Notes: generated by a model from the letters alone, not told the origin. Shown: positions 28,790 to 43,456, counted from the first letter of the stretch. The stretch is 60,662 nt of DNA from Halothiobacillus sp. (GCA_020061705.1 JAGUXT010000040.1:1-60662), one strand, 5' to 3'. Program-made: numbers and translations.

Positions 28790-29868
28790 CTGTGCTCCAG
28801 GCTCGTGAAATTGAGCGCTCTCATTACACCGAATTTCTGCGGCAGGCGACGTCTGGAGCGTTCCAGCCTCTTGAATGGCTGGAGCAGGTCGAGCACGTTT
28901 ATCCCGTGAAGCTATTCACCCTGGGGTATTTCAGTGGAGATGAACTAGTCGCAGTGACCCCTCTGATTCGCAGGCGCATGGGTTTTTTCGAGCTTTGGGG
29001 CAGCCCGATGCGCCAGATTCCTGTGCCGCCTACCACATCCTTTTGCATTCCACAGGAAAAGGGAGAGGCGGCTTGGAGTGCCTTGCAGGTATGGGCGAAA
29101 CAGCATGGACTCGCCTATCTCCAAGTTACTCTGCCCCCCGGTGTCGCTGTGCAGCTAACCCGCGGACTGCATCTCGAATCGGTCGAAAATATTGAGATTG
29201 ACCTGCAACAGCCCATTGAGCAATTGTGGAAAAATGTTTCGCAATTGCCGAAGCGTTGCGTTCGAAACGCGGTAAGAAACGGGGTTAAAGTTCACTGGAA
29301 GCGCGGTCGCGGCGTATTGGACGATCAGGTTACCCTGCTGGAACAAACCTATACTCAGCAAGGTCTTGCGCCGAATTTTCCCCTAGAGTTCTATCGGGTG
29401 CTGCTTGAGCATAAAGATCAGCTTGGATTAAGGATTTTGTGTGCAACGCATGGTGGGCAATGCGTTGCGGTGATATGGGTGATGACAGACAGCGATTGTT
29501 GTTATTACTGGGATGCCGCTGCGCTGGACGAAGGGCGAAAACTCAATGCTAACCATCTGTTGGTGTGGAGTCTGATCCGCTGGGCAAAAAGAAACGGCTT
29601 CAAGACGCTGGATTTTGTCGGTGCGGGCGGGCGTGCGGGTACCAAACCAGGCATCAAACGCTTCAAGATGTCGATGGGTGGGGTGGAAACCTCGCGACAG
29701 ATCCTTTTCCGCATGACCCCGTTGATGCGTCTGGCCCTGAGAGGGTTTCGTCTGATGAACACGATTAAAAACCATCTTGCGTCGAATTTGTCCAGTCGCC
29801 GAAAGCCTGCATCAGAGGGTGATACCCCGGAGAAAGTCAGTGCCGCCAATGAAGCGCCGCGCGCATAA
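28786..29868 (+). CDS. FemAB/GNAT-like acyltransferase
   Basis: 360 residues. The second half (about 140-300) resembles the BioF2/Acetyltransf_6 domain: LPKRCVRNAVRNGVKVHWKR, FYRVLLEHKDQLGLRIL, CVAVIWVMTDSDCCYYWDAA, NHLLVWSLIRWAKRNGFKTLDFVGAGG. Such GNAT-fold proteins transfer aminoacyl or acyl groups to cell-wall or surface-glycan amines. A tail after about residue 325 is basic and Ser-rich. Its 3' end overlaps by 32 nt the 3' end of another FemAB-like gene on the opposite strand. Confidence 0.78.
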   Translation: MTVLQAREIERSHYTEFLRQATSGAFQPLEWLEQVEHVYPVKLFTLGYFSGDELVAVTPLIRRRMGFFELWGSPMRQIPVPPTTSFCIPQEKGEAAWSALQVWAKQHGLAYLQVTLPPGVAVQLTRGLHLESVENIEIDLQQPIEQLWKNVSQLPKRCVRNAVRNGVKVHWKRGRGVLDDQVTLLEQTYTQQGLAPNFPLEFYRVLLEHKDQLGLRILCATHGGQCVAVIWVMTDSDCCYYWDAAALDEGRKLNANHLLVWSLIRWAKRNGFKTLDFVGAGGRAGTKPGIKRFKMSMGGVETSRQILFRMTPLMRLALRGFRLMNTIKNHLASNLSSRRKPASEGDTPEKVSAANEAPRA

Positions 29869-30694
29869 GTTGGCCCTTGATGTTCAGTGGAATGTCGAAG
29901 TGGTTGATTTCATAAACCATGGCACCCCATTTTTTCTTGAACTGAACCAACGAAGGTTGGTCGGCGGGTGAGGGCATGAAATTGAATTCATGGCAGCCTG
30001 CATTGCGCGCCCGTGTTATCGCTTCACCCATTAATACAAAACCAGGTCGGTATTGGGCATGTTTTTCGTCCATGCCACCATGCAGGTAATAGGCAGTGCC
30101 TTCACGGTAAGCGGATATATTGAAACCGCAACGCTCGCCGGAAGGCACTTCGGCAATCAAGGCTACCAATCCGGGCTGTTGGGTGCCTGTTTGGCACAGG
30201 GCATGGAAATAGGATTCGGTGTAGCGCCTATTGCCACCGTGTCGCAACACTGTTTCCAGATACATCCGGAAGATAAAGTTGGCGTCATCGACCGTCGCAG
30301 GGCGCAGGGTGATGCCTTCACGTTTTGAACGTCGAATTTTGTAACGCAAGTCACTGTCCAGGCGCTCTTCCGACCATGTATTCAGTGCAAAAATACTGGC
30401 CTCAGGCAAACGAATACTGCTGAGTTTTGCATACCCGCCAAAACGTTGCGGCCAATTGATGCGTAGAAGATCAGCCCCTATAAGCCGGATAGCTTCCAGC
30501 GTGTCAGGTTCCATGATGCGTGCATGATCATCCTCGCTGCGTATTCCGAACGGGAAGTTAACATAGCCCGCGCGCAGCAGGTACTTCTTGAAAACGGTGA
30601 TATTGGCTGATCCACCCAGGGGAAAACTTTGGGCAGCAAATCCATGATGCAGAATGGAAAACCACGCGGCAGCGTCAATGTCTTGCACGCTCAT
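29837..30694 (-). CDS. FemAB/GNAT-like acyltransferase (second copy type)
   Basis: 285 residues. SDLRYKIRRSKREGITLRPA and DANFIFRMYLETVLRHGGN, then YREGTAYYLHGGMDEKHAQY, GFVLMGEAITRARNAGCHEFNFMPSPAD and VQFKKKWGAM follow the Acetyltransf_6/FemAB pattern. It is divergent from the 360-residue protein encoded convergently and not a recent duplicate. Its ATG overlaps the upstream methyltransferase by 4 nt. A role in adding an acyl or aminoacyl group to the same glycan is likely but inferred. Confidence 0.8.
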   Translation of the reverse strand: MSVQDIDAAAWFSILHHGFAAQSFPLGGSANITVFKKYLLRAGYVNFPFGIRSEDDHARIMEPDTLEAIRLIGADLLRINWPQRFGGYAKLSSIRLPEASIFALNTWSEERLDSDLRYKIRRSKREGITLRPATVDDANFIFRMYLETVLRHGGNRRYTESYFHALCQTGTQQPGLVALIAEVPSGERCGFNISAYREGTAYYLHGGMDEKHAQYRPGFVLMGEAITRARNAGCHEFNFMPSPADQPSLVQFKKKWGAMVYEINHFDIPLNIKGQLMRAALHWRH

Positions 30695-31431
30695 TGCGGC
30701 TTCTCCAGAACGAACACAAAGCCGGGGGAAAGCGGGGTCAAAGCCCGGACTAGCCAGGCGGGAATATAGCGAAGCATGGCGTAGGGCAGGCCGCCTTTTG
30801 GGCCAGGGATGACTTGTTTAACCAGTACGGGCAGGGCGTTTTTCACTTTGAAGTCACGCGTCAACCAGCCGGTGAGTTGCCAGTAATGAGTCGAGTAAGC
30901 GTCCAGATCGTCGGCGTGTTTCGAACCCAGTGCCTTCATCAGTCTGATGGCGAAAGGGCGTGGCAACCAGTGGACAAATGGCCAAAACACATGCGGCTCG
31001 ATGGGGAATAAAAGGTTTGGGCCAGCAAAGTAGACCAGGCCGCCGGGTTTGAGCACGCGGTGGATCAGGTGAATCAGCGCCTGTGGGTCGGGTACATGTT
31101 CATACACCTGGTTGCAGATGATGACATCGACTGAGGCGGGCGGGAGCGTGAGCGTGTCAACGCTGGCCTGAATAAAACGTAGGTTGGTGTGCGCCTGCTC
31201 CCAGTCCTGCCATCGTGCCCAGGGCTCGGGGTCAACGCCGATCATCTGGCGAACCTGCGGCGCGATATATGCGGAGATGCCGCCACTGCCGCAGCCCAAA
31301 TCCAGCCATTGCATTTGAGATAGGTTGTGTTTGCTGTGGTGTTGCAAGGTTTGAAAAATTTGCTCAGCCTTGATGTTGCGATCGTCGGCGCCCCATCGCG
31401 GATCAGTGTTGGTGTGCTGAAATTCATTCAT
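30691..31431 (-). CDS. Class I SAM-dependent methyltransferase
   Basis: 246 residues. WLDLGCGSGGISAYIAPQV (about 43-61) is the SAM loop, IGVDPEPWARW the acidic strand-2 end, VDVIICNQVYEHVPDPQALI the post-strand-4 motif and LKPGGLVYFAGPNLLFP strand 5. A hydrophobic, basic C-terminus may sit at the membrane. It is coupled by 4-nt overlaps to a GT4 glycosyltransferase upstream and a FemAB-like gene downstream. Confidence 0.86.
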   Translation of the reverse strand: MNEFQHTNTDPRWGADDRNIKAEQIFQTLQHHSKHNLSQMQWLDLGCGSGGISAYIAPQVRQMIGVDPEPWARWQDWEQAHTNLRFIQASVDTLTLPPASVDVIICNQVYEHVPDPQALIHLIHRVLKPGGLVYFAGPNLLFPIEPHVFWPFVHWLPRPFAIRLMKALGSKHADDLDAYSTHYWQLTGWLTRDFKVKNALPVLVKQVIPGPKGGLPYAMLRYIPAWLVRALTPLSPGFVFVLEKPQ

Positions 31432-32567
31432 GCTGTCCGCCCCTGAATGCGCTGGGCGAAACGTTGGGCGGATTCGGCAATATCAAAGTGTACACATGCT
31501 GTCTGGATCCCTTGGGTGTAGACGGTTGGTGCAGTATTCAGGGCTTTGCGCAGGGCGGATGCGAACGCTGACGCCGAAATGTCTTCTGCCAGCTCACCAC
31601 AGCCATGCTCATTGAGCAAGGCAGGAAGATCGCCTGTCGGCATGGCAATTACAGGGCGTCCGGCTTGCATGGCATCGGAGAAAATTACGGGGATGCTTTC
31701 GATGCGTGACGGGATCAACACAAAATCCGTCCAGTTCAATAAATCGGTTGCGGCGGACTGGTCGATAAAGCCGCCAATCTCAATCGGGTGTCCATGCTCA
31801 ATCAGTGTTGCGCAACGCTGGTGAACCAGTGCTTCCAAGGGGCCTCCGCCGAAGATGCGTACCTGTTCGATACGTTGCCAGTCCGCTTCATCCAACTGGC
31901 CGAGCGCCTCAAGCAGCAGGTCGATGCCCTTGTTGGAGTGCCAGCGGCCAAGAAATGCCAGTCGATAGGGTGGCGTGTGTGAAAAGAGGCGTGGGTTTGT
32001 CACAACCAGCCGCCTTGCGCTGGGCAAAAAATCGCACGTCGAGCCACTGATACGCGTCACGTCCTGCGCAAGTTGCAGGCCGTCGGCATAGCGGTGTGCT
32101 GCGTTGCGCAACACATGCCCCAACCACTGGCGGATGAGCGGAATCTTGCCCAGGCTCCATATATCGCTGCCAAGCGCCCATGTGCCGTAGGGGATGCCGT
32201 AACGCAGGGATGCCTGCCTTGCCCATGCGCCACTGGGTAGAGCCCATAGCGCGAAGATATAGTCTGGTCGGTCAGTTGCGCAGAGATGATTCACACTGTG
32301 TTGTCCCTGGCGCAGCGTGTGGGCAATCGCCGTCCAATCGCGTGGGTCTTGTGGCTTGAGCAGGGAGAGCGGTAGACGTGGAACAGCGAAGCGTCGAACG
32401 CTCACGCCAGCCTCGTTAGCCGTGCGGCTCGCAGAGCCGGGTGTTATGACGGTAACTTGATGTCCCTGTCCGACCAGGGCTAGTGCAAAATCACGCACAA
32501 AAACACCCGCTGCCGCCGCGCCATCACTTTCGTCCGGGTAGGAGGTGGTGACAATCAATAGTTTCAT
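31428..32567 (-). CDS. GT4 family glycosyltransferase
   Basis: 379 residues, a single GT-B enzyme: N-terminal KLLIVTTSYPDESDGAAAAG with GVFVRDFALALVGQGHQVTV, and C-terminal LAFLGRWHSNKGIDLLLEAL and LIPSRIESIPVIFSDAMQAG as the donor-site region. It probably adds one sugar to a lipid-linked acceptor on the cytoplasmic face. It lies in a minus-strand operon between two methyltransferase genes, overlapping both by 4 nt. Confidence 0.88.
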   Translation of the reverse strand: MKLLIVTTSYPDESDGAAAAGVFVRDFALALVGQGHQVTVITPGSASRTANEAGVSVRRFAVPRLPLSLLKPQDPRDWTAIAHTLRQGQHSVNHLCATDRPDYIFALWALPSGAWARQASLRYGIPYGTWALGSDIWSLGKIPLIRQWLGHVLRNAAHRYADGLQLAQDVTRISGSTCDFLPSARRLVVTNPRLFSHTPPYRLAFLGRWHSNKGIDLLLEALGQLDEADWQRIEQVRIFGGGPLEALVHQRCATLIEHGHPIEIGGFIDQSAATDLLNWTDFVLIPSRIESIPVIFSDAMQAGRPVIAMPTGDLPALLNEHGCGELAEDISASAFASALRKALNTAPTVYTQGIQTACVHFDIAESAQRFAQRIQGRTA

Positions 32568-33334
32568 GCGCGCTTTCTGAACATGGCGGTATAACCCAAG
32601 GGCATAAAGCCATCATCCGGAACCAATCGTGCCATAAGCCATCCTGCAAGATTGATGGCGGGAACCAATAGAAGAACCAAAGGCAAAAGAAGCAAACCAG
32701 GGTGTCGGGTTTGCAGGCTCTCCAACATGCCCTTGGCCAATGCCAGATTGGCCAATACGGCGGCAGTTTCCAGCGGTTTGCCGTGATGCGTCAGTTCGAT
32801 GAGATCAGCCGGGTGGCGCATGGTGTACTGGCGTAATCCTTCGCCAGTCCAGCGTTGAAAGTCATGCGGCAGGTCATGCAGGGGATAAAGAAAGGGGGTT
32901 TGGCTGATGAGGATGCCGCCGGGTTTGAGTACACTCAACATCTCCCTAAAAGCGGCCTCAGGATTGGGCAGGTGCTCCATGACATCCATGATGCTGATGC
33001 AGTCAAAGCTGGCATCTTTGAAGGGCAGGCGCTGCCCGTCGCCGAAGACATCCGCCTTGCCGCTGTAGCCTTTGGCGACCGTGGGCGGGTAGTCGAGGCC
33101 GATGTATTCCACACCGTCACCCAAGAAGGGCATGAGTGGTTTTTCACCGCAGCCTATATCCAGCAGGCGACCATGGATGTGTTGAGCAACCCGTTGTTTA
33201 TGCATCTGCGCATCGCGGAATACTAGCCATTGTGGGTGCAGCGGCGTATGACGCAGCCCGCTGAGTAGGCGGCGAAACTTGGGTGCAATCATGCTGGGGT
33301 TATCCGTGTGAGCGTGTTCTAAGGCTGTGCCCAT
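32564..33334 (-). CDS. SAM-dependent methyltransferase with hydrophobic C-terminal segment
   Basis: 256 residues. LLDIGCGEKPLMPFL is the SAM loop, IGLDYPPT strand 2, and FDCISIMDVMEHLPNPEAAF and LKPGGILISQTPFLYPLHDL follow. The Y-P-x-H-D-x-P-H-D-F segment is typical of a group found beside surface-polysaccharide genes. A strong hydrophobic stretch near the end (LLLLPLVLLLVPAINLAGWLM) should anchor it in the membrane. ATG 33334 is used here; a Met 14 codons later (33292) is the alternative, and neither has a clear Shine-Dalgarno sequence. Confidence 0.84.
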   Translation of the reverse strand: MGTALEHAHTDNPSMIAPKFRRLLSGLRHTPLHPQWLVFRDAQMHKQRVAQHIHGRLLDIGCGEKPLMPFLGDGVEYIGLDYPPTVAKGYSGKADVFGDGQRLPFKDASFDCISIMDVMEHLPNPEAAFREMLSVLKPGGILISQTPFLYPLHDLPHDFQRWTGEGLRQYTMRHPADLIELTHHGKPLETAAVLANLALAKGMLESLQTRHPGLLLLPLVLLLVPAINLAGWLMARLVPDDGFMPLGYTAMFRKRA

Positions 33335-33342
33335 GAGGTTTA

Positions 33343-34626
33343 TTAAAGTCGGCCATCTGAGTCATCTTTGTCCAAAACCCCCTTCACATCAAACAACACG
33401 CCTTCATCCATGCACAAGCTGCGGAACCCGTTCGCGCCCAGCGCCTTGAAAGGCTCATGCGCCACGGCCACGATCACAGCGGCGAAGCGCTCGCTGGGCA
33501 GGGTGGTTTCCAGCGTTTCGCCGTATTCGTGCATGACCTCATCGGCGTTGGCGACCGGGTCGTGAAGGGTGACATGCAAGCCGTATTCACGCAGTTCGCG
33601 CACGATGTCGATGACGCGGGTGTTGCGTATGTCCGGGCAGTTTTCCTTGAAGGTGAAGCCGAGAATCAGGGCGCGTGCGCCCTTGAGCTGAAAGCCGCGC
33701 TGGCCGAGCAGTTTGATGACACGTTGCGCGACATGCGCGCCCATGCCGTCGTTGATGCGCCGTCCGGCGAGGATCATTTCCGGGTGATAGCCAATTTCCT
33801 GCGCCTTGTAGGTCAGGTAGTACGGATCGACACCAATGCAGTGGCCGCCGACGAGGCCGGGGCGGAAGGGCAGAAAATTCCACTTGCTGCCCGCTGCGGC
33901 CAGCACCTCGCTGGAATCCAGCCCCAAGCGGTGAAAAAGAATGGCGAGTTCATTCACCAGGGCGATATTCACGTCACGCTGGGTGTTTTCAATCACTTTG
34001 GCGGCTTCTGCGACGCGAATGGAGCTGGCCAGGTGCGTGCCTGCGCGGATGATGCGGCGGTAGAGGTCATCGACAAAGCGTGCGGCTTCGGGCGAGGAGC
34101 CTGAAGTGACCTTGATGACATCCGGCAGGCGGCGCTGTTTGTCGCCGGGGTTGATGCGTTCCGGGCTGTAGCCGAGGGCGAAGTCTTCATGCAGGCGCAG
34201 GCCGGTGATGCGCTCCAGAATGGGCAGGCAGAACTCTTCGGTGCAGCCGGGATAGACCGTGCTTTCATAAATCACTACATCGCCATGCTTGAGTGCCGCG
34301 CCGACCGCTTCGCTGGCCAAGCGCAGCGGCTCAAGATCGGGGCGGCGTGCCGCGTCCACCGGGGTGGGCACGGTGATAATGAAAACATTGCAGTCCCGTA
34401 ACGCACCGGCCTCTGAGGTGAAGCTTAGATGGCTGGCAATGGCAAGTTCTTCGGCAGATGCCTCGCCGCTACGATCACAACCGGCATGCAGTGCGGCAAC
34501 ACGTTCCGCATTGATGTCCAAACCTACAGTGGGGTACAAGCGGCCAAAGGCAATTGCCAGGGGCAAACCGACGTAGCCCATACCGATAATGCCAATGTGG
34601 GGTGAGGATGGAAGAGAGGCAGTCAT
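33343..34626 (-). CDS. UDP-N-acetylhexosamine 6-dehydrogenase (WbpO/TviB type)
   Basis: 427 residues, complete. NAD-binding GIIGMGYVGLPLAIAFG, the TVPTP motif, YESTVYPGCTEE, the NTQRDVNIALVNELA segment, the catalytic cysteine in GGHCIGVDPYYLTYKAQ, and the C-terminal domain with LGFTFKENCPDIRNTRV. This pattern fits dehydrogenases making UDP-HexNAcA (WbpO, TviB) rather than UDP-glucose dehydrogenase. It heads the minus-strand operon of region 3 and probably supplies an amino-uronic acid to the glycan, perhaps with the DegT aminotransferase. Confidence 0.9.
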   Translation of the reverse strand: MTASLPSSPHIGIIGMGYVGLPLAIAFGRLYPTVGLDINAERVAALHAGCDRSGEASAEELAIASHLSFTSEAGALRDCNVFIITVPTPVDAARRPDLEPLRLASEAVGAALKHGDVVIYESTVYPGCTEEFCLPILERITGLRLHEDFALGYSPERINPGDKQRRLPDVIKVTSGSSPEAARFVDDLYRRIIRAGTHLASSIRVAEAAKVIENTQRDVNIALVNELAILFHRLGLDSSEVLAAAGSKWNFLPFRPGLVGGHCIGVDPYYLTYKAQEIGYHPEMILAGRRINDGMGAHVAQRVIKLLGQRGFQLKGARALILGFTFKENCPDIRNTRVIDIVRELREYGLHVTLHDPVANADEVMHEYGETLETTLPSERFAAVIVAVAHEPFKALGANGFRSLCMDEGVLFDVKGVLDKDDSDGRL

Positions 34627-34707: not shown

Positions 34708-35577
34708 TCATTTTCTACCGTGATGCCGAACTTGCATATACGCCAGCTGGGTTAGTTGCTCAGAAATCAGGCCAATCAAGAAAATAATCACTGCACTGGT
34801 TAACAAAAACAGCGTGGCCAGCGACAATCGCCCTTGGTCGATATAGGTGAAGGCGTAGTATCCCAACCCCAGCAGCGCGTGCAGGAGCGCCACAGGACCA
34901 AACAGCTTCATTGGAGCATAAAGCGTGCCGATCTTGAAAATAATCAGCAAGAAGCGCATTCCGTCCTTGAAAAGGTGGATATGGCTTTTGCCAATGCGCT
35001 TGGCCGCATGAATTGGCACATACGCTACGGCATAACCTGCGCGGAAAAACGCCATGGTACTGGTCGTTGGATACGAAAAGCCGTTCGGTAGCAAATCCAG
35101 AAACTCGCGGAACTTATCGGCGCGTACTGCACGGAAACCTGAAGTCAGGTCTTCAATTTTGTGGCCAGTCATATAACTCGCTAGGCGATTGTAAAAGCCA
35201 TTCGCCAGCCCCCGCCCCACGCTTGCCTGCGAGCCCTGACCACGTGCGCCTACCACCATGTCGTAGCCCATGTCCAGGCGATTAAGTAGGCTGCGAATAT
35301 CTACCGGGTCGTGTTGCCCGTCAGCATCCATGAAAACCAAAATGCCCCCACTGGCGGCACGCGCCCCGCTTTTAATTGCCGCACCATTGCCCATGCTGTA
35401 TGGGTGCGAAATTACGCGCGCGCCCGCTTCGGTAGCGAGTCGTACGGTGTCATCCGTGGAGCCATCATTAACGACGATCACCTCGGCGGAGGGGTGTAAT
35501 TCGAGAATTTTAGCCACAGTCAAACCAACCGCACCGGATTCGTTTTTGGCGGGAAGGATAATGGAAAGTTTTGTCAC
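34708..35577 (-). CDS. GT2 glycosyltransferase, polyprenyl-phosphate sugar synthase-like
   Basis: 289 residues from GTG 35577, whose codon overlaps the upstream stop (GTGA); the frame is open 15 codons further but without homology. The GT-A domain has LSIILPAKNESGAVGLTVA, VIVVNDGSTDDT, FMDADGQHDP and LTSGFRAVRADKF. Two membrane segments follow (PVALLHALLGLGYYAF, ATLFLLTSAVIIFLIGLIS). This is the DPM1/GtrB-like layout: a sugar is moved from a nucleotide onto polyprenyl phosphate. It is coupled to the TPR-bearing membrane protein upstream, which could use the lipid-linked sugar. Confidence 0.88.
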   Translation of the reverse strand: MTKLSIILPAKNESGAVGLTVAKILELHPSAEVIVVNDGSTDDTVRLATEAGARVISHPYSMGNGAAIKSGARAASGGILVFMDADGQHDPVDIRSLLNRLDMGYDMVVGARGQGSQASVGRGLANGFYNRLASYMTGHKIEDLTSGFRAVRADKFREFLDLLPNGFSYPTTSTMAFFRAGYAVAYVPIHAAKRIGKSHIHLFKDGMRFLLIIFKIGTLYAPMKLFGPVALLHALLGLGYYAFTYIDQGRLSLATLFLLTSAVIIFLIGLISEQLTQLAYMQVRHHGRK

Positions 35578-37463
35578 TGATTGTCCAATAATGATTGCGC
35601 ACGTACACATGCCTTGTTCCACTCGGCATGACTAAACAGGGCAGACATAGGCTGTGGGGCGCATAGATGGTCGGATACAAAGCGCAGAGCTTTGTCACGC
35701 TGATTCTGTTGCAGCAAATATTGCACAGTACTTAAGCCAAGCTCAGCTCGCGGAGCCGCAGTGTATGTTGCCAGCAACAATTGAACGCTTGCTTCCATGT
35801 TTCCTTTTTCTATGGCTAAAAGATGAAGGTTGTTCAAAACTTGCTGTCGCTTAAGGTTGTACATGGGTAGAGCTCGATCAAGAAGTGAATTGTTCATGCG
35901 CTCTAGCGTGTCCCAGTCGACCAGTGTACACCGCTTTTTTTTCACGAGATTTTGCAGCTGGCTCAATGTGCCCGCCGTGCCACCTGTAACAGGTGCGATC
36001 AATACCTGTTTGAAATATTCAGTGAGGTGTCGGCTGACATCGCTCTGCTTGCCCAGAAGGCAAGATAACTGAATCGCTTGTGCAATAGATGCCAGGCAAT
36101 TGGGGCAATTGGTAACTTGCCGGTCTAGAGTTGCATAGGCTCGCTCGTGTAAATCAAGTTGGGTGTAAATCAAAGCTAGATGTTCAGCCGCTCTGGTTGA
36201 GCCGGGGTTGCGCTCAAACCAAATTTCAGCGGCATGCACAGGACGCCCCCAAAGCGCTGCTGTTTGGTACATCAAAAACCCTAGCAGAAGAATGAAAGCG
36301 CCCAACCCAAAGCGCGCCAATTTTTGGAAGCGTATCGATACGTGCAACGCGCCCCAGACAAGAGCAAACGCGAAGCCGAACCAGGCGATGTACTGACGAT
36401 GCTCATAGTACAGGTCTAATGCCAGTACGCTTGATTCGAGCAGATGTGCAGTTAAAAACCACAATACCGCGAAGCTAAGTACTCGGGAGCGTTTACGATA
36501 AAACCAGGCCAAGGGGATTACAATGACCCAGAAAAGCAAGGCGGCAGCAGCTTCCGGGTGTTCACTGAACGAATGAATTACGGGGTATGCATCATGCAGC
36601 GGGTGAATATCCAAGAAGCGTGGTGCGAACGACTGACGTAAGTACTCAAACAGGATGACAGCCTCTGTCATAACCCGTTCCCAAACATTGAATGCGCGCT
36701 CCCAGTAGACTCCGCCGCTACTCCAAAGGCTATAAACCAAATATGAGAGTAATACCATGAGGCTTGAGAAATAAAGCAGGCCACGTACCCGTCGATATGG
36801 CAGCATAAGGTTCGATAGCAAGGTTGCTTCGATCACTCCTGCGAATAGGGGTAAAAGCGCCCCATTCTCCTTACTGAGTAAGGCCAACCCAGTCATACCT
36901 ATGAGCCCGATGATCTGGAGCGCACGGCCCTGGCTTGGATACTGCAGGGAACGTTGAAGCCCTATTATCCAAAGTAGAAGACCCAGCCAGGTAAAAAATG
37001 CCGACAAACTCGCCATCCGCTGTACCGCGACAAGTACGGTAGCGGCCTGAATGGGAGCCAGCCCCCACAATGCAGCGGTAAAAACTCCCAGCCAAAGCGC
37101 ATGAGGGCTATTCAGGATTTGACCAATGCGCCATGCAAGAAGGCCGACCAGCAAGGTATTGGCGGCATGTAAAGCAATGTTTATGGCAAAAATTGCCTCA
37201 GGGTGCTTCGGATATGCCGTGACTGGCCAAAGAAACGTAGCCATGGACAATGGTCGCCCGAGTGGTCCGGTATAAAAGCCAAAGTTCATGAAGTCTGCGA
37301 CAGGCATCCTTCCCGCAGCCACGTTAGGCAATAGCTGGAGAATGGGTGTGTCGTCGTAAAAAAACGTAGCATTTACCCCAGGTGCGAGAGCCGTGACGAC
37401 CAAGGCTAATACAACAAGAAATGCACTTGCAGCAAGTAAGGATGAGCGGTTTTTTGTCATCAA
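35574..37463 (-). CDS. Polytopic membrane protein with TPR-like tail, GT-C/TMTC-like
   Basis: 629 residues. One membrane segment is followed by a periplasmic loop with FFYDDTPILQLLPN and GPLGRPLSMATF, then about 9-10 more segments to residue ~410. The paired acidic residues in the first loop and the G-R-P-L-S-x-x-T-F stretch recall GT-C O-mannosyltransferases of the TMTC type. The rest (about 415-629) is helical and TPR-like (AAEHLALIYTQLDLHERAYATL, NCPNCLASIAQAIQLSCLLG). It sits between the pilin accessory gene and a polyprenyl-phosphate sugar synthase-like gene, so I infer a pilin glycosyltransferase. I did not find TfpO/PglL ligase motifs. Confidence 0.75.
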   Translation of the reverse strand: MMTKNRSSLLAASAFLVVLALVVTALAPGVNATFFYDDTPILQLLPNVAAGRMPVADFMNFGFYTGPLGRPLSMATFLWPVTAYPKHPEAIFAINIALHAANTLLVGLLAWRIGQILNSPHALWLGVFTAALWGLAPIQAATVLVAVQRMASLSAFFTWLGLLLWIIGLQRSLQYPSQGRALQIIGLIGMTGLALLSKENGALLPLFAGVIEATLLSNLMLPYRRVRGLLYFSSLMVLLSYLVYSLWSSGGVYWERAFNVWERVMTEAVILFEYLRQSFAPRFLDIHPLHDAYPVIHSFSEHPEAAAALLFWVIVIPLAWFYRKRSRVLSFAVLWFLTAHLLESSVLALDLYYEHRQYIAWFGFAFALVWGALHVSIRFQKLARFGLGAFILLLGFLMYQTAALWGRPVHAAEIWFERNPGSTRAAEHLALIYTQLDLHERAYATLDRQVTNCPNCLASIAQAIQLSCLLGKQSDVSRHLTEYFKQVLIAPVTGGTAGTLSQLQNLVKKKRCTLVDWDTLERMNNSLLDRALPMYNLKRQQVLNNLHLLAIEKGNMEASVQLLLATYTAAPRAELGLSTVQYLLQQNQRDKALRFVSDHLCAPQPMSALFSHAEWNKACVRAQSLLDNQ

Positions 37464-37532
37464 GTCGTTTCTTTAATCTTGGTGGTAGGATGGGTTACAG
37501 GAAAAACCTTGAAATGCTGTACGGATAAAAAG

Positions 37533-38306
37533 CTACCAGCCATCCATAGGTAATGTGGTTAATGGTCGTCCGTCGATCTTGTTAATAATGACCACCCAAT
37601 CATTTTGTTCCCTGGTAATAAGGGGAAGATAGGCGAGTTCGCTTTCGTTGACGCCCAATTGTTTAATGGTGCGAGTGATGATTTCGGCATGGAATGAGTT
37701 TTTTCTTGATAGCTCGCTTAATGGTTTCGCTTGTTTCTTTACGTGTTCAATTTGCGTTGAGTAAGCTACCCAGCGTGCCGGGCGAAAAGCTGAGTGGAAA
37801 CCAGCGATAGATTGTTCGATGCTTAGAAGGTAGCCGGGATCATTAGGTGTAAGCGAAGGTACGCCAACTGGTAGCGGGCCACGCCAGCTTAATTGACGCA
37901 TTCCTTCTGGCGCATTAGTTAAATCCGCTTTTGGGATGTCTGCAGCAGTTACTAAGCGGAATGCATCGGCCTCGAAAGCGAGCCATACAGGTCGGGCTTC
38001 AAACGCGGTATTCAGGCCATATATCAGGGCGGCAACCTGCATTAAGGTAATAGCACCAATATCTCGTGCCAACGCGGGTTTTGGCTTGGCAGGATCAAAG
38101 ATCACAAGCGTCAATACCGGCCCCATGACCAGATCGATGATGCCGATCATAAAAATTAAGTTCCGACCACCTGCTAGCTCATCAAATGGTGATGGATACC
38201 ATAGCAAAAATACTAAAGCAGCAGCCAGAACTACGACCCCTAGGCTTATAACAAGGTGAATGCCAGCTGCACGAAGTGCAGAAATATAACGTTGCGTTAG
38301 GGGCAT
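37533..38306 (-). CDS. TfpX/TfpZ family type IV pilin accessory protein
   Basis: 257 residues. The N-terminal half is membrane-embedded: LVISLGVVVLAAALVFLLWYP, then GGRNLIFMIGIIDLVMGPVL and TLVIFDPAKPKPALARDIGA, followed by ARPVWLAFEADAFRLVTAAD. The rest is soluble, ending DWVVIINKIDGRPLTTLPMD. These are hallmarks of TfpX/TfpZ proteins encoded next to particular pilin alleles, needed in Pseudomonas for proper assembly of their cognate pilin. It is 63 nt downstream of the second pilin gene, which fits that pairing. Confidence 0.93.
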   Translation of the reverse strand: MPLTQRYISALRAAGIHLVISLGVVVLAAALVFLLWYPSPFDELAGGRNLIFMIGIIDLVMGPVLTLVIFDPAKPKPALARDIGAITLMQVAALIYGLNTAFEARPVWLAFEADAFRLVTAADIPKADLTNAPEGMRQLSWRGPLPVGVPSLTPNDPGYLLSIEQSIAGFHSAFRPARWVAYSTQIEHVKKQAKPLSELSRKNSFHAEIITRTIKQLGVNESELAYLPLITREQNDWVVIINKIDGRPLTTLPMDGW

Positions 38307-38369: not shown

Positions 38370-38891
38370 TTAAATGTTACGGCACTCGGCGGGCATGTAC
38401 TTGAAAGCTGAAGCATTGCTGACACGGCAGCCCCAAACCATTGAGATGTTCGGCATAATTGGACTGGCAGGTAAGCCATTGGCAACAACACCCGTTCCAG
38501 GTGTGAGTTGTATTGTAGTACTCAACAGGCTTGCTAGCGAGCCCGCAAAAGTAATAATGATTCTTCCCTCACTAACTGCAGGGGCTGCAATATTTGCGAT
38601 TCCTGTTATTTGGATGGAGGCTACCTTTGATGTTGGAACAAAAGTATAACCATAAGAACCTACTAAACTGGCTCCTGTTCCTGCATAGGCCACAATGGCA
38701 CCGGCTGTTGAGGTGGTGAATACTTCCGATACGGCGATTTTTGCCTCAGCGGCCAATGACAAACCCTCAGTAACTTTTGCTCGGGTCACATAATCCTGGT
38801 ATTGAGGTAGTGCAATAGCTGCCAAAATCCCGATGATTGCAACAACGATCATTAACTCTACAAGAGTGAATCCACACGTTTGATTTTTCAT
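38370..38891 (-). CDS. Type IV pilin, second copy
   Basis: 173 residues from ATG 38891. The short leader MKNQTCG precedes the prepilin cleavage site and [20 protein letters not shown] with the conserved Glu5. Two C-terminal cysteines (VWGCRVS and PAECRNI) form the disulfide-bonded loop. The protein resembles the pilin encoded just upstream over its whole length ([29 protein letters not shown]) but differs in the central region. An open frame upstream of the ATG is not pilin-like. It has a weak Shine-Dalgarno sequence and a terminator in front, so expression is probably much lower than that of the first pilin. Confidence 0.94.
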
Positions 38892-38938: not shown

Positions 38939-38964
38939 AAAAAAACCCCAGCATCGCTGGGGTT
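38939..38964 (-). terminator. Terminator between the two pilin genes
   Basis: On the minus strand AACCCCAGC-gat-GCTGGGGTT is followed by seven T. It lies about 100 nt after the first pilin stop and before the second pilin start, so read-through would control the second pilin and the genes after it. Confidence 0.9.
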
Positions 38965-39061
38965 CAATGTTCGGTTAAACTCAGCCTATCCAGCAATAAC
39001 TATCGCCTTGCAAAGCCAAGCTAAACAGCTACCGTGACTTGAAATCACAGCTGACTAGAGA

Positions 39062-39598
39062 TTAAACAGCGCGGCATTCAGCAGGTACGTACTTGAACGC
39101 GGTGTTAACGCTTACGCGGCAACCCCAAACCACACCGGCACCACGAGCCATGGCAGCAGCTGGCAAGCCAGTGGTTGATGATACTGTTCCGCTGCCGGGG
39201 GTCAGTTGGACAGTTGCGCCCACAGTAGTTGCCAAAGGACCAGCGAAAGTAATGGTAATGCGACCATTGCCAATGGCGGGAGCTGTAGTGTTGGCAATTG
39301 CTGCAATCGCAATTGAAGCAACCTTAGAGGTGGCTGTGAAGTCAAAGCCATAAGAACCGGCAGGGGACAAGCCAGTACCAGGGAAAGCTACGACGCTTGT
39401 AGCGTTAGTGGTGGCAAAGGTCTCCGATACAGCCGTTTTAGCTGCGCTGGCCAAGGACAGCCCCTCGGTAACCTTTGCGCGAGTTACGTAGTCCTGATAG
39501 GCAGGCAGTGCAATTGCGGCCAAAATACCAATGATCGCAACAACGATCATCAATTCGATCAGGGTAAAACCCTGTTGTGCTTTTTTCATCATGTTCAT
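39062..39598 (-). CDS. pilA: Type IV major pilin
   Basis: 178 residues from ATG 39598, with AGGAG 7 nt upstream. The leader [10 protein letters not shown] is cut before [20 protein letters not shown], which has Glu5. The Ala/Thr/Gly-rich globular domain ends with a two-cysteine loop (VWGCRVS, PAECRAV). The upstream sigma-54 promoter, tandem enhancer palindromes, good RBS and following terminator mark this as the highly expressed major pilin, under the PilS/PilR pair encoded just upstream. It is exported to the inner membrane, processed by PilD and assembled into pili. The roughly 75 extra codons in the open frame upstream overlap the promoter and are not coding. Confidence 0.97.
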
Positions 39599-39654: not shown

Positions 39655-39671
39655 ATGCATGTGCCGTGCCA
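39655..39671 (-). promoter_or_regulatory. Sigma-54 promoter of pilA
   Basis: On the minus strand TGGCACGGCACATGCAT matches the -24/-12 consensus TGGCACG-N4-TTGCA with one mismatch and exact GG-to-GC spacing. Transcription should start near 39645, leaving a leader of about 47 nt. Sigma-54 dependence of pilA is well known in Pseudomonas. Confidence 0.92.
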
Positions 39672-40029: not shown

Positions 40030-41394
40030 TTATTTTAGACCCATTTTTTCAAGCCGATAGCGCAGCTGACGCAGGGTGAGTCCAAGCGTTTCGGCGGCGC
40101 GGGTGCGGTTCCAGCGATGGATTTCCAGGGTTTGGATCAGGGTGTGTTCGTCGTCGGGGGCGTGGTTTTGATTTATGGGGGCAGCGTTGAGATGTGATGG
40201 GTGTGCGGTTGCGATTATGCCGCTGCGTTGGGCAGGGAAGCTGAGTTCGCTGGCGTGGATGGGGCCGGTATCGCCGAGGGCGAGGGTGCGTTCCAATATG
40301 TTTTCCAGTTCGCGTACATTGCCGGGGAAGCCGTAGGTCTGGAGTGCGGTAAGCGCTTCGGGGTCAAGTTGGCGCAGGGGAATACCGTCACGCTGGCTGA
40401 GGCGCTGCAGGATGGCGGTGGCAAGGAGGGGGATGTCTTCGGGGTGTTCGCGCAAGGGGGGGGCATCGAGTTGGATGACGTTGAGGCGGTAGTAGAGGTC
40501 TTGGCGAAAGTCGCCGGCATTTACGAGAGCTGTGAGGTCTTTGTGGGTGGCGGAGATAATGCGCACGTCCACGGCTTCTTCATGCGCGGCGCCGACGGGG
40601 CGCACGGCGCGCTCCTGAATGGCGCGCAGGAGTTTGACTTGCATGGCGAGGGGTAATTCGGCGACTTCATCCAGAAAGAGTGTGCCGCCTTTGGCGGCCT
40701 GAAAGAGGCCTTGTTTGTCACTGCTGGCGCCGGTGAAGCTGCCTTTGCGGTGGCCGAAAAACTCGCTTTCCATCAGTTCGCTTGGGATGGCACCGCAGTT
40801 GACCGGGAGGAAGGGCTTGGCGCTGCGCGGGCTGAGGTCGTGAATCAAGCGGGCGATGACCTCCTTGCCGGTACCGGATTCGCCGTGGATGAATATGGGG
40901 GCCTGACTGCGGGAAACTTTGGCGATTTGGGCGCGCAGTTGGCGCATGGCGGGAGCGAGCCCGATAAGGCGATCGGCACCCTGGTCGTCGGCATGGGTGC
41001 CATTTTTGGTGGCGCTTGCCGGGTTGAGGCGTAGGGCGGTTTCGACCATGTCGCGCAGGCGGACGAGATCAAGGGGTTTGTTGACGAAATCAAAGGCACC
41101 GGACTTTAGGGCTTCAATTGCGCTTTGCATATCGCCGTGGGCGGTAATGACGGCGACGGGCAGGCCAGGATGGTTTTGGGCGATTTCGCGTACAAGATCA
41201 AGGCCGTTGCCGTCGGGTAGGCGCATGTCGGTGAGGCAAAAGTCGAAACTCTGCGCAGCAAGGGCAGCTCGGGCTTGCGCGAGGTCGCTGACGGGGTGGG
41301 TTTGAATACCCATGCGCGAGAGGCTGATGCCGAGCAGGGTGAGGATGTCGGCTTCGTCGTCGATGATAAGAGCTTTGCTGGGTATTGGGTTCAT
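40030..41394 (-). CDS. pilR: Sigma-54-dependent response regulator PilR
   Basis: 454 residues, NtrC family. Receiver domain (about 8-120) with phospho-acceptor Asp in FCLTDMRLPDG and Lys in FVNKPLD. AAA+ domain (about 150-385) with Walker A GESGTGKEV, the sigma-54-contact loop GSFTGA and Walker B GGTLFLDEVAELP. C-terminal Fis-type helix-turn-helix NRTRAAETLGLTLRQLRYRL. It activates pilA from enhancer sites when phosphorylated by PilS. It lies beside the pilin genes in the classical position. Its ATG overlaps by 4 nt a small Uma2-like gene that separates it from pilS. Confidence 0.97.
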   Translation of the reverse strand: MNPIPSKALIIDDEADILTLLGISLSRMGIQTHPVSDLAQARAALAAQSFDFCLTDMRLPDGNGLDLVREIAQNHPGLPVAVITAHGDMQSAIEALKSGAFDFVNKPLDLVRLRDMVETALRLNPASATKNGTHADDQGADRLIGLAPAMRQLRAQIAKVSRSQAPIFIHGESGTGKEVIARLIHDLSPRSAKPFLPVNCGAIPSELMESEFFGHRKGSFTGASSDKQGLFQAAKGGTLFLDEVAELPLAMQVKLLRAIQERAVRPVGAAHEEAVDVRIISATHKDLTALVNAGDFRQDLYYRLNVIQLDAPPLREHPEDIPLLATAILQRLSQRDGIPLRQLDPEALTALQTYGFPGNVRELENILERTLALGDTGPIHASELSFPAQRSGIIATAHPSHLNAAPINQNHAPDDEHTLIQTLEIHRWNRTRAAETLGLTLRQLRYRLEKMGLK

Positions 41395-41806: not shown

Positions 41807-43456
41807 TCAGGTGGCGGGTGGCTCTGTGTTGTCGCGGCAGAATTCTTGTGATGGGAAGGTGATGCGGAAACAGCGTTCGCCGTGAATGTCATGATGATAG
41901 TTCAAGCTGAGCTGGTTGGCTTCGGCCAGCTCGCGGGCAATGAACAGACCGAGGCCGTGGCCTTGGACATGGGTGCTGAAAAAAGGCTCGAACAGGCGGT
42001 GGCGCATGGCTTCAGGGACGCCGGGCCCGTTATCGCGGATTTCGATGCGTGGGCGATTTTGCGCGCCAAAGGCTTGGGCATCAACGCGAATGCGCTGGCT
42101 GCCGACACTGGGTTTGCCGTGTTGGCGGGCGTTGTCAAGCAGGATGGTGATGATTTGTTCGAGGTGGGTTAGATCGACGCGAGCACAGAGGCTGGGGGCG
42201 GCGGTGAGGTCAATTTTAATGCCGTCGAGTGGGGCATAGGTACGGTAGCGTTCGAGTAGGTCGTGTAGCCATGTGGCAAGCGGGATGCGTTCGGGTTTGG
42301 GTTGTTTGCGTTTGGCGGTGTTGAGGACGTTTTCAACCAGTTGGTTTATGCGCTCGACCTGGCTGCGCACGATGCCGAGCATTTGGCGGTCTTCGTCGTT
42401 GTGTGCGGTTTGCTCCAGTAGTTGTCCCGCATGGCCGATGGCGCTAAGCGGGTTGCGGATTTCGTGGGCTATGCTGGCCGTGAGTCGCCCCATGGCGGCA
42501 AGTTTTTCCTGTTGGTGCTTTTCGACGAGGTAGGCATCGTCTTCAATGAAAATAGCGACGGGGCCCTCGGGGTCGTCGGCAAGCGGGCGCAAGCGGATAT
42601 GCAGGCGCATTGGGTAGGTAATACGGGTTTCGCTTAGATCGCTGTCGGGGGTGTCGCGCCAGGCATGGAGCGCATTGTTGAGGTCGGGATTGATGGTAGC
42701 GAGAGGGGGGCGGCTGAGGGTGTTTTCACCAATGCGTTCCAGTGGAATGCGCAGCATTTGGGTGGCGGCTGGGTTGGCATAGCGGATGCGCTGGTCTTCG
42801 TCGACCACGATGACGCCTTCCTGGCTTTGTTCGAGAATGAGGCGGTTAAGCTGGGTTTCGTTGGCAAGGTCGATGCCGCGCTGCTCGGCAAGTTGCTGGT
42901 TAACACTGGCACGTTTGGCGAGGCCGTTGGCTAGGATGGCGACGGCAAAGAGCGCTAGGCCGTTGAGCCCAGCATGGGTGAAGGATACGCCAAGCTCAAT
43001 GCCCAGGCGGTGATCCCAAAAATTCATGGCTAAAAGCATTAGGCTACCGAGGGCGGCATAGGCGAGAGATTGGCGACCACCGAGCAAAAGCGAGGCATAC
43101 GCCATATTAACGACCATGAGGATGTGCAGGTTGTTAATGGGCGAGCCATCCAACGCACCAAGCAGCGCAAGGAAGATAATGTCTAGAGCCAGGCCAAGTT
43201 GCAGGCGCGGGCTGAAGCGCCCTGGGCGCAGTTCGTCGATGGCAAAGAGCAGAAGCGCGAGCAAGGCGTAACTGGCCGCCAGTACTGTGAAAAGGTCAAA
43301 GTTCTCTGCGGAAAAGGCGGGAAGTTGGCGTTGGGCCTGTAAAAATGCGTGAGTGCCCAGCAATAGGCTGGCGACTACCAGTCGGTAGGCGTTGAAAAAA
43401 CGCAAGCCGCGCCAGTTGGGGCGGGGGTTGCTTGAAGGTGTTTCACTTGGGCTCAT
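41807..43456 (-). CDS. pilS: Sensor histidine kinase PilS
   Basis: 549 residues. Six membrane segments in the first ~190 (LVVASLLLGTHAFL, LFTVLAASYALLALLLFAID, LALDIIFLALLGAL and so on), a PAS domain (LILEQSQEGVIVVDEDQRIR), the dimerisation/phosphoacceptor helix with His in ASIAHEIRNPLSAIGHAGQL, and an HATPase domain with DNARQHGKP, RDNGPGVPEA and GHGLGLFIAREL. In Pseudomonas PilS senses inner-membrane pilin and controls PilR. It is the first gene of pilS-uma2-pilR, upstream of the pilins. Confidence 0.96.
   Translation of the reverse strand: MSPSETPSSNPRPNWRGLRFFNAYRLVVASLLLGTHAFLQAQRQLPAFSAENFDLFTVLAASYALLALLLFAIDELRPGRFSPRLQLGLALDIIFLALLGALDGSPINNLHILMVVNMAYASLLLGGRQSLAYAALGSLMLLAMNFWDHRLGIELGVSFTHAGLNGLALFAVAILANGLAKRASVNQQLAEQRGIDLANETQLNRLILEQSQEGVIVVDEDQRIRYANPAATQMLRIPLERIGENTLSRPPLATINPDLNNALHAWRDTPDSDLSETRITYPMRLHIRLRPLADDPEGPVAIFIEDDAYLVEKHQQEKLAAMGRLTASIAHEIRNPLSAIGHAGQLLEQTAHNDEDRQMLGIVRSQVERINQLVENVLNTAKRKQPKPERIPLATWLHDLLERYRTYAPLDGIKIDLTAAPSLCARVDLTHLEQIITILLDNARQHGKPSVGSQRIRVDAQAFGAQNRPRIEIRDNGPGVPEAMRHRLFEPFFSTHVQGHGLGLFIARELAEANQLSLNYHHDIHGERCFRITFPSQEFCRDNTEPPAT

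Follow-up and report, generated by a model that had tools for sequence, protein, structure and literature searches.

Some bacteria are protected from pilus-binding phages by glycosylation of their pilins, a modification to which few routes are known. TfpO and PglL are O-antigen-ligase-like enzymes that use glycans carried on a lipid diphosphate, and tfpO is found downstream of pilA. TfpW, which arabinosylates group IV pilins of Pseudomonas, is a glycosyltransferase of the GT-C type that is encoded beside pilA and takes a polyprenyl-linked sugar to the pilin; a tfpX gene is associated with the same pilin group (PMC11841053). Its substrate is D-arabinofuranose, and the lipid donor has been proposed to start from a synthase dependent on phosphoribosyl pyrophosphate (PMC11127046). 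The eukaryotic protein O-mannosyltransferases TMTC1-4, whose acceptors are cadherins, carry a GT-C membrane core followed by tetratricopeptide repeats (TPR) and transfer a single sugar from a lipid-phosphate sugar; full-length TMTC-like proteins have also been noted in poorly characterised prokaryotes, with no role assigned (PMC7801869). In GtrABC and other three-component systems of periplasmic glycosylation, a GtrB-type glycosyltransferase of family 2 (GT2) works together with a GT-C transferase on the periplasmic face (PMC11127046). Here we describe a locus in a stretch of 60,662 nucleotides from Halothiobacillus sp. (GCA_020061705.1 JAGUXT010000040.1:1-60662, termed the window in the following; the genome comprises 2.27 Mb and, judged by its relatives, falls in the GTDB class Gammaproteobacteria), in which genes for a TfpZ-like protein, a GT-C protein with a TPR tail and a GT2 protein lie at positions 34,708 to 38,306, on the same strand as pilS, pilR and two type IV pilin genes, which precede them. 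With a probability of about 0.77, we consider the GT-C/GT2 pair to be a dedicated module for O-glycosylation of type IV pilins, in which a polyprenyl-phosphate sugar would be used by a TMTC-like GT-C enzyme. The locus is organised as follows (all features on the minus strand):

41807..43456, minus: open reading frame for a PilS-like sensor kinase; homologues directly precede pilR-pilA-GT-C in many loci
40030..41394, minus: open reading frame for a PilR-like, sigma54-dependent response regulator; syntenic
39656..39671, minus: sigma54 (RpoN) promoter-like site TGGCACGGCACATGCA preceding the first pilin gene; sole exact match within the window
39062..39598, minus: first type IV pilin, probably the major one (PF00114 and N_methyl); reading frame listed to 39832, likely start ATG at 39598 after AGGAG
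38943..38965, minus: intrinsic terminator (10-pair stem and T run) between the first pilin gene and the remaining cassette
38370..38891, minus: second type IV pilin (PF00114 and N_methyl); reading frame listed to 38954, likely start ATG at 38891
37533..38306, minus: pilin accessory protein of the TfpX/TfpZ family, 257 residues (NF041437, 205.6 bits, cut-off 200)
35574..37460, minus: predicted GT-C-fold membrane glycosyltransferase with periplasmic TPR tail, 628 residues (AlphaFold2 model, structural matches, invariant residues)
34708..35577, minus: predicted GT2 polyprenyl-phosphate sugar synthase of the GtrB/ArnC/DPMS type, 289 residues (PF00535, phrog_841, AlphaFold2 matches)

By analogy, the logic of the putative module resembles that of TfpW and GtrABC. 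It differs from TfpW in that the donor would come from a DPM1-type GT2, a distinction drawn from published descriptions, and from GtrABC in that the cassette lacks a flippase and the predicted acceptor is a protein and not O antigen. Unlike TMTC1-4, the GT-C protein is linked to pilins and has no match to TMTC_DUF1736 (PF08409), a domain that is also missing from the Pfam families listed for 39 homologues; a Pfam scan for it over 299 genomes gave no matches, with the controls equally silent. In ArnC/ArnT, too, a GT2 makes an undecaprenyl-phosphate sugar that a GT-C enzyme uses, but ArnT modifies lipid A. The original prediction set the pathway apart from the TfpO, PglL and TfpW routes. TfpO and PglL likewise belong to pilin-linked O-glycosylation genes, but no O-antigen-ligase (Wzy_C/PglL) domain was matched by Pfam in the GT-C protein of the window, nor does one appear among the families listed for the 39 homologues. 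The separation from TfpW extends no further than the donor enzyme and the tail of TPRs, since published descriptions make TfpW, too, a GT-C enzyme that modifies pilin from a lipid-linked sugar. No description of a GT-C/GT2 pair beside pilin genes was found in the searchable literature, from which preprints and most subscription journals are absent, and novelty is thus provisional.

The GT-C protein itself had no Pfam or NCBIfam match above cut-off. Its reading frame is listed as 35574-37463 with a TTG start; an ATG at 37460, one codon inside, is the likelier start and yields 628 residues. The AlphaFold2 model, built on an alignment of 71 homologues, reached a pLDDT of 94.5 and a pTM of 0.93. 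While a Foldseek ranking against the PDB was dominated by TPR proteins, a second structural alignment exposed the GT-C core: residues 1-434 matched Stt3 (8age) with Z 19.3 over 324 residues at a root-mean-square deviation of 4.5, and the top 17 matches (Z 13.4-19.3) were all GT-C transferases, with AftB (Z 13.4) among them; DPY19 (11.8) and AftA (11.7) followed. The acidic first loop that had been proposed is present as FFYDDTPIL directly after the first transmembrane helix (2-30), and its D36 and D37, for which we infer a catalytic role, are invariant in all 71 homologues, along with R69, H98, Q147, R148, K197, E342, E353, H354 and R355. The aligned homologues are 21-38% identical. The TPR-like tail was likewise borne out, by the model and by TPR_19 matches in 27 of the 39 homologues, most of which show repeats in the tail; the tail of the window copy is too divergent for Pfam, with ANAPC3 alone appearing at 17 bits, below cut-off. 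A weak Pfam match to PMT was seen in just one of the 39 homologues. Judged by its predicted fold, the protein belongs with the GT-C enzymes, bears its TPR tail on the outside and does not resemble a transporter or a Wzy/WaaL-type ligase.

The GT2 reading frame is listed from 35622; a GTG at 35577 overlaps the stop codon of the GT-C gene ('GTGA') and gives a protein of 289 residues. It matches PF00535 and, with 96 bits over almost its full length, phrog_841, a phage GtrB-like family. The model (pLDDT 90.4) shows a GT-A fold, a DxD motif and C-terminal membrane helices of the GtrB/ArnC/DPMS type, with the two predicted membrane segments at 221-247 and 252-285. The closest solved structures are dolichol-phosphate-mannose synthase (Z 26.9), ArnC (25.1) and GtrB (21.6), and the DxD in MDADGQH is invariant in 23 orthologues. 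These matches support a polyprenyl-phosphate sugar synthase of the DPM1/ArnC/GtrB type, much as first proposed. ArnC is among the best matches in both structure and sequence; nevertheless, the protein scores far below every curated cut-off of the NCBIfam equivalogs AglJ, PpgS, ArnC and PgfS (61.9 bits against the ArnC model, cut-off 529). A divergent GT2 takes the place of the usual one in Ectothiorhodospira, Rhabdochromatium and Nitrincola and still scores best with polyprenyl-phosphate-hexose synthase models. Such a different subfamily lies beside the GT-C gene at L117:3476-4516, L128:5990-7024 and L132:7974-8969, and the replacement perhaps reflects a changed sugar.

Co-occurrence was followed in 369 genomes drawn evenly from the Gammaproteobacteria as defined by GTDB. 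Note that a single GT-C sequence retrieved nothing from genome contigs and that an alignment query was required. The GT-C family is present in 105 of the 369 genomes, about a quarter of the species sampled, and the GT2 (E 1e-60 or better; about 50-72% identical to the window copy among the orthologues) in 97, almost always as one copy. Both occur together in 94 genomes, the GT-C alone in 11 and the GT2 alone in 3 (Fisher p 8e-71, a value that ignores shared ancestry, though the genomes span well over 100 families). Gene order was compared in 39 loci of the class sample whose GT-C gene is intact. The GT2 gene follows within 1.5 kb downstream in 30 of them and lies on the opposite side in none; a pilin gene is found upstream, no more than 1.5 kb away, in 28 of the 35 loci that have room for one (opposite side, 1). 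An alignment-based scan of named genomes yielded at least 589 confirmed GT-C loci; Thauera, Colwellia, Methylotuvimicrobium, Halopseudomonas, Comamonas, Acinetobacter proteolyticus and Marinobacter are among the matches listed. With wider limits, pilin genes were upstream in 52 of 68 and GT2 genes downstream in 36 of 70 loci of this set, which has some genomes in common with the class set. The order pilS-pilR-pilA-GT-C-GT2, of which pilS and pilR are often part, recurs in dozens of families, and the arrangement in the window is therefore not due to chance. A search of plasmids with the GT-C gave no match.

The divergence of the GT-C protein also follows that of its pilin. In 32 loci that carry a single gene each for pilin, GT-C and GT2, distances between pilins correlate with those between GT-C proteins (r 0.56) and show no correlation with those between GT2 proteins (r -0.04); given GT2, the partial correlation between pilin and GT-C is 0.60 (0 of 2000 permutations). 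In 29 non-redundant loci it is 0.47 (0 of 1000 permutations), with contributions from the membrane and the TPR portions of the GT-C protein alike. Such co-divergence fits an enzyme adapted to its own pilin. Synteny, co-occurrence and correlated divergence thus tie the GT-C and GT2 genes to pilins, as had been anticipated.

For the chemistry, we infer the following route. At the cytoplasmic face, the GT2 would move a sugar, probably of the hexose type, from a nucleotide donor onto undecaprenyl (polyprenyl) phosphate, and the lipid-linked sugar would be flipped by a protein encoded outside the cassette. At the periplasmic face, the GT-C enzyme, with its putative catalytic Asp in the first external loop, would transfer the sugar to a Ser or Thr of the globular domain of the pilin while the latter still sits in the inner membrane, and the periplasmic TPR tail may help in pilin recognition. 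Some loci carry tandem GT-C genes, up to three, so that a second sugar or site, or further ones, would be conceivable. At L140:6001-11725 and L159:5932-11685, three consecutive GT-C paralogues precede one GT2 gene, an array that suggests several sites, several sugars or several pilins.

Several observations weigh against a pilin-dedicated module. No conserved acceptor Ser or Thr was found in the alpha-beta loop of the linked pilins, and Ser/Thr content does not separate GT-C-linked from unlinked pilins. Movement of pilin and GT-C genes as a single piece could give the same co-divergence signal. At L074, L079, L080, L084, L091, L092 and L098 the GT-C gene stands without a pilin gene in view. 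The cassette contains no flippase gene, and the sole GtrA found in the genome belongs to a separate Gtr-like cluster (L212, G000:C26:6000-14000), which encodes a polytopic protein of 716 residues, a GtrB-like GT2 (348 residues) and GtrA (165 residues). Lastly, a polysaccharide-type gene cluster directly follows the GT2 gene in the window: positions 29837-34626 encode a TviB-like nucleotide-sugar dehydrogenase, two methyltransferases, a GT4 and a FemAB/GNAT-type protein. This neighbourhood, together with the placement of the GT2 in the GtrB-like group phrog_841, is what one would cite for a GT2/GT-C pair whose target is a lipid-linked polysaccharide in the periplasm, either O antigen or capsule, in the manner of GtrB/Gtr, with the pilin genes adjacent by position only. 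We regard this as unlikely: the neighbours kept across families are pilS, pilR and pilA, GT-C divergence tracks pilin divergence, and periplasmic TPR domains are generally more usual for protein partners.

Quite improbable, in our view, is that the GT-C protein acts as an oligosaccharyltransferase, moving a multi-sugar lipid-linked glycan to the pilin like TfpO/PglL or PglB while the GT2 supplies one of the sugars. The closest solved folds, Stt3, AglB (Z 16.5) and PglB (15.3), do belong to oligosaccharyltransferases, and TfpW has also been proposed to be one, going by the title of a reference in PMC11841053. However, the protein O-mannosyltransferase Pmt4 (9i5k) is nearly as good a match (Z 17.0); the families shown for these homologues include no Wzy_C/PglL domain, and the tight pairing with a polyprenyl-monophosphate-sugar synthase fits a single-sugar donor. 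It is highly improbable that the protein is catalytically idle and serves pilus assembly or as a chaperone through its TPR tail. In favour of this, residues 418-628 match TPR proteins that include the pilus factors PilF (Z 12.1) and PilW (Z 11.4), although matches between TPRs are non-specific. Against it, conservation is higher in the membrane core than in the tail (35% versus 18% mean identity), the core carries the invariant acidic pair and Arg/His/Lys set, and strict GT2 pairing would be left without explanation.

The accessory gene between the pilin and GT-C genes had been taken as a third part of the module. It is a genuine member of NF041437, as predicted, but its membership in the module was not sustained. 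The gene occurs in no other genome of the family to which the window belongs, and in the class sample TfpZ and GT-C are shared by 17 genomes against about 17.6 expected by chance. As a core component TfpZ was thus rejected, being statistically independent of the GT-C across the class and absent where the family's other genomes are concerned. The related TfpY acts in pilus assembly, which it promotes, and has no glycosyltransferase function (PMC11841053); TfpZ is therefore an occasional rider on the cassette and probably a separate helper in the assembly of pili. In Comamonas suwonensis (L131:7901-8724), a tfpZ gene split into two reading frames is located between the GT-C and GT2 genes. The exact order of the window, pilA-pilA-tfpZ-GT-C, was encountered in another family (L222:1983-6017, G359:C9), where the GT2 gene lies on the opposite strand at a distance of about 9 kb.

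Upstream, both pilin genes of the original prediction proved correct, with PF00114 and N_methyl on each. The sigma54-type site ahead of the first pilin gene is what control by PilRS would be expected to bring; as 4.55 matches with up to one mismatch are expected by chance in the window, it rests mainly on its position downstream of pilRS. A terminator after pilA has been described for accessory-gene cassettes of other pilins (PMC11841053). In a genome of the same genus (L211, G024:C64), pilS and pilR are retained near argS, with no pilin, TfpZ, GT-C or GT2 gene nearby, and the whole cassette therefore looks accessory within the genus; in the sister genome G025 the locus is interrupted by a contig end. 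Broken GT-C copies, each next to a pilin or GT-C gene that is intact, occur at L099 (G060:C1) and L082:5016-6985, as would be expected of a locus under turnover.

Taken further, we lean slightly towards a separate, so far unnamed system of type IV pilin glycosylation that extends over roughly a quarter of gammaproteobacterial species, in which a TPR-bearing, TMTC-like GT-C co-diverges with the pilin and is fed by a highly conserved polyprenyl-phosphate sugar synthase private to the system, and expanded GT-C arrays add sugars or serve several pilins. If the module works as its parts suggest, it would rank with the most frequent means of pilin modification in Gammaproteobacteria, would provide a substrate for uncharacterised prokaryotic TMTC-like proteins and would constitute a simple pathway of protein O-glycosylation, each part of which is testable.

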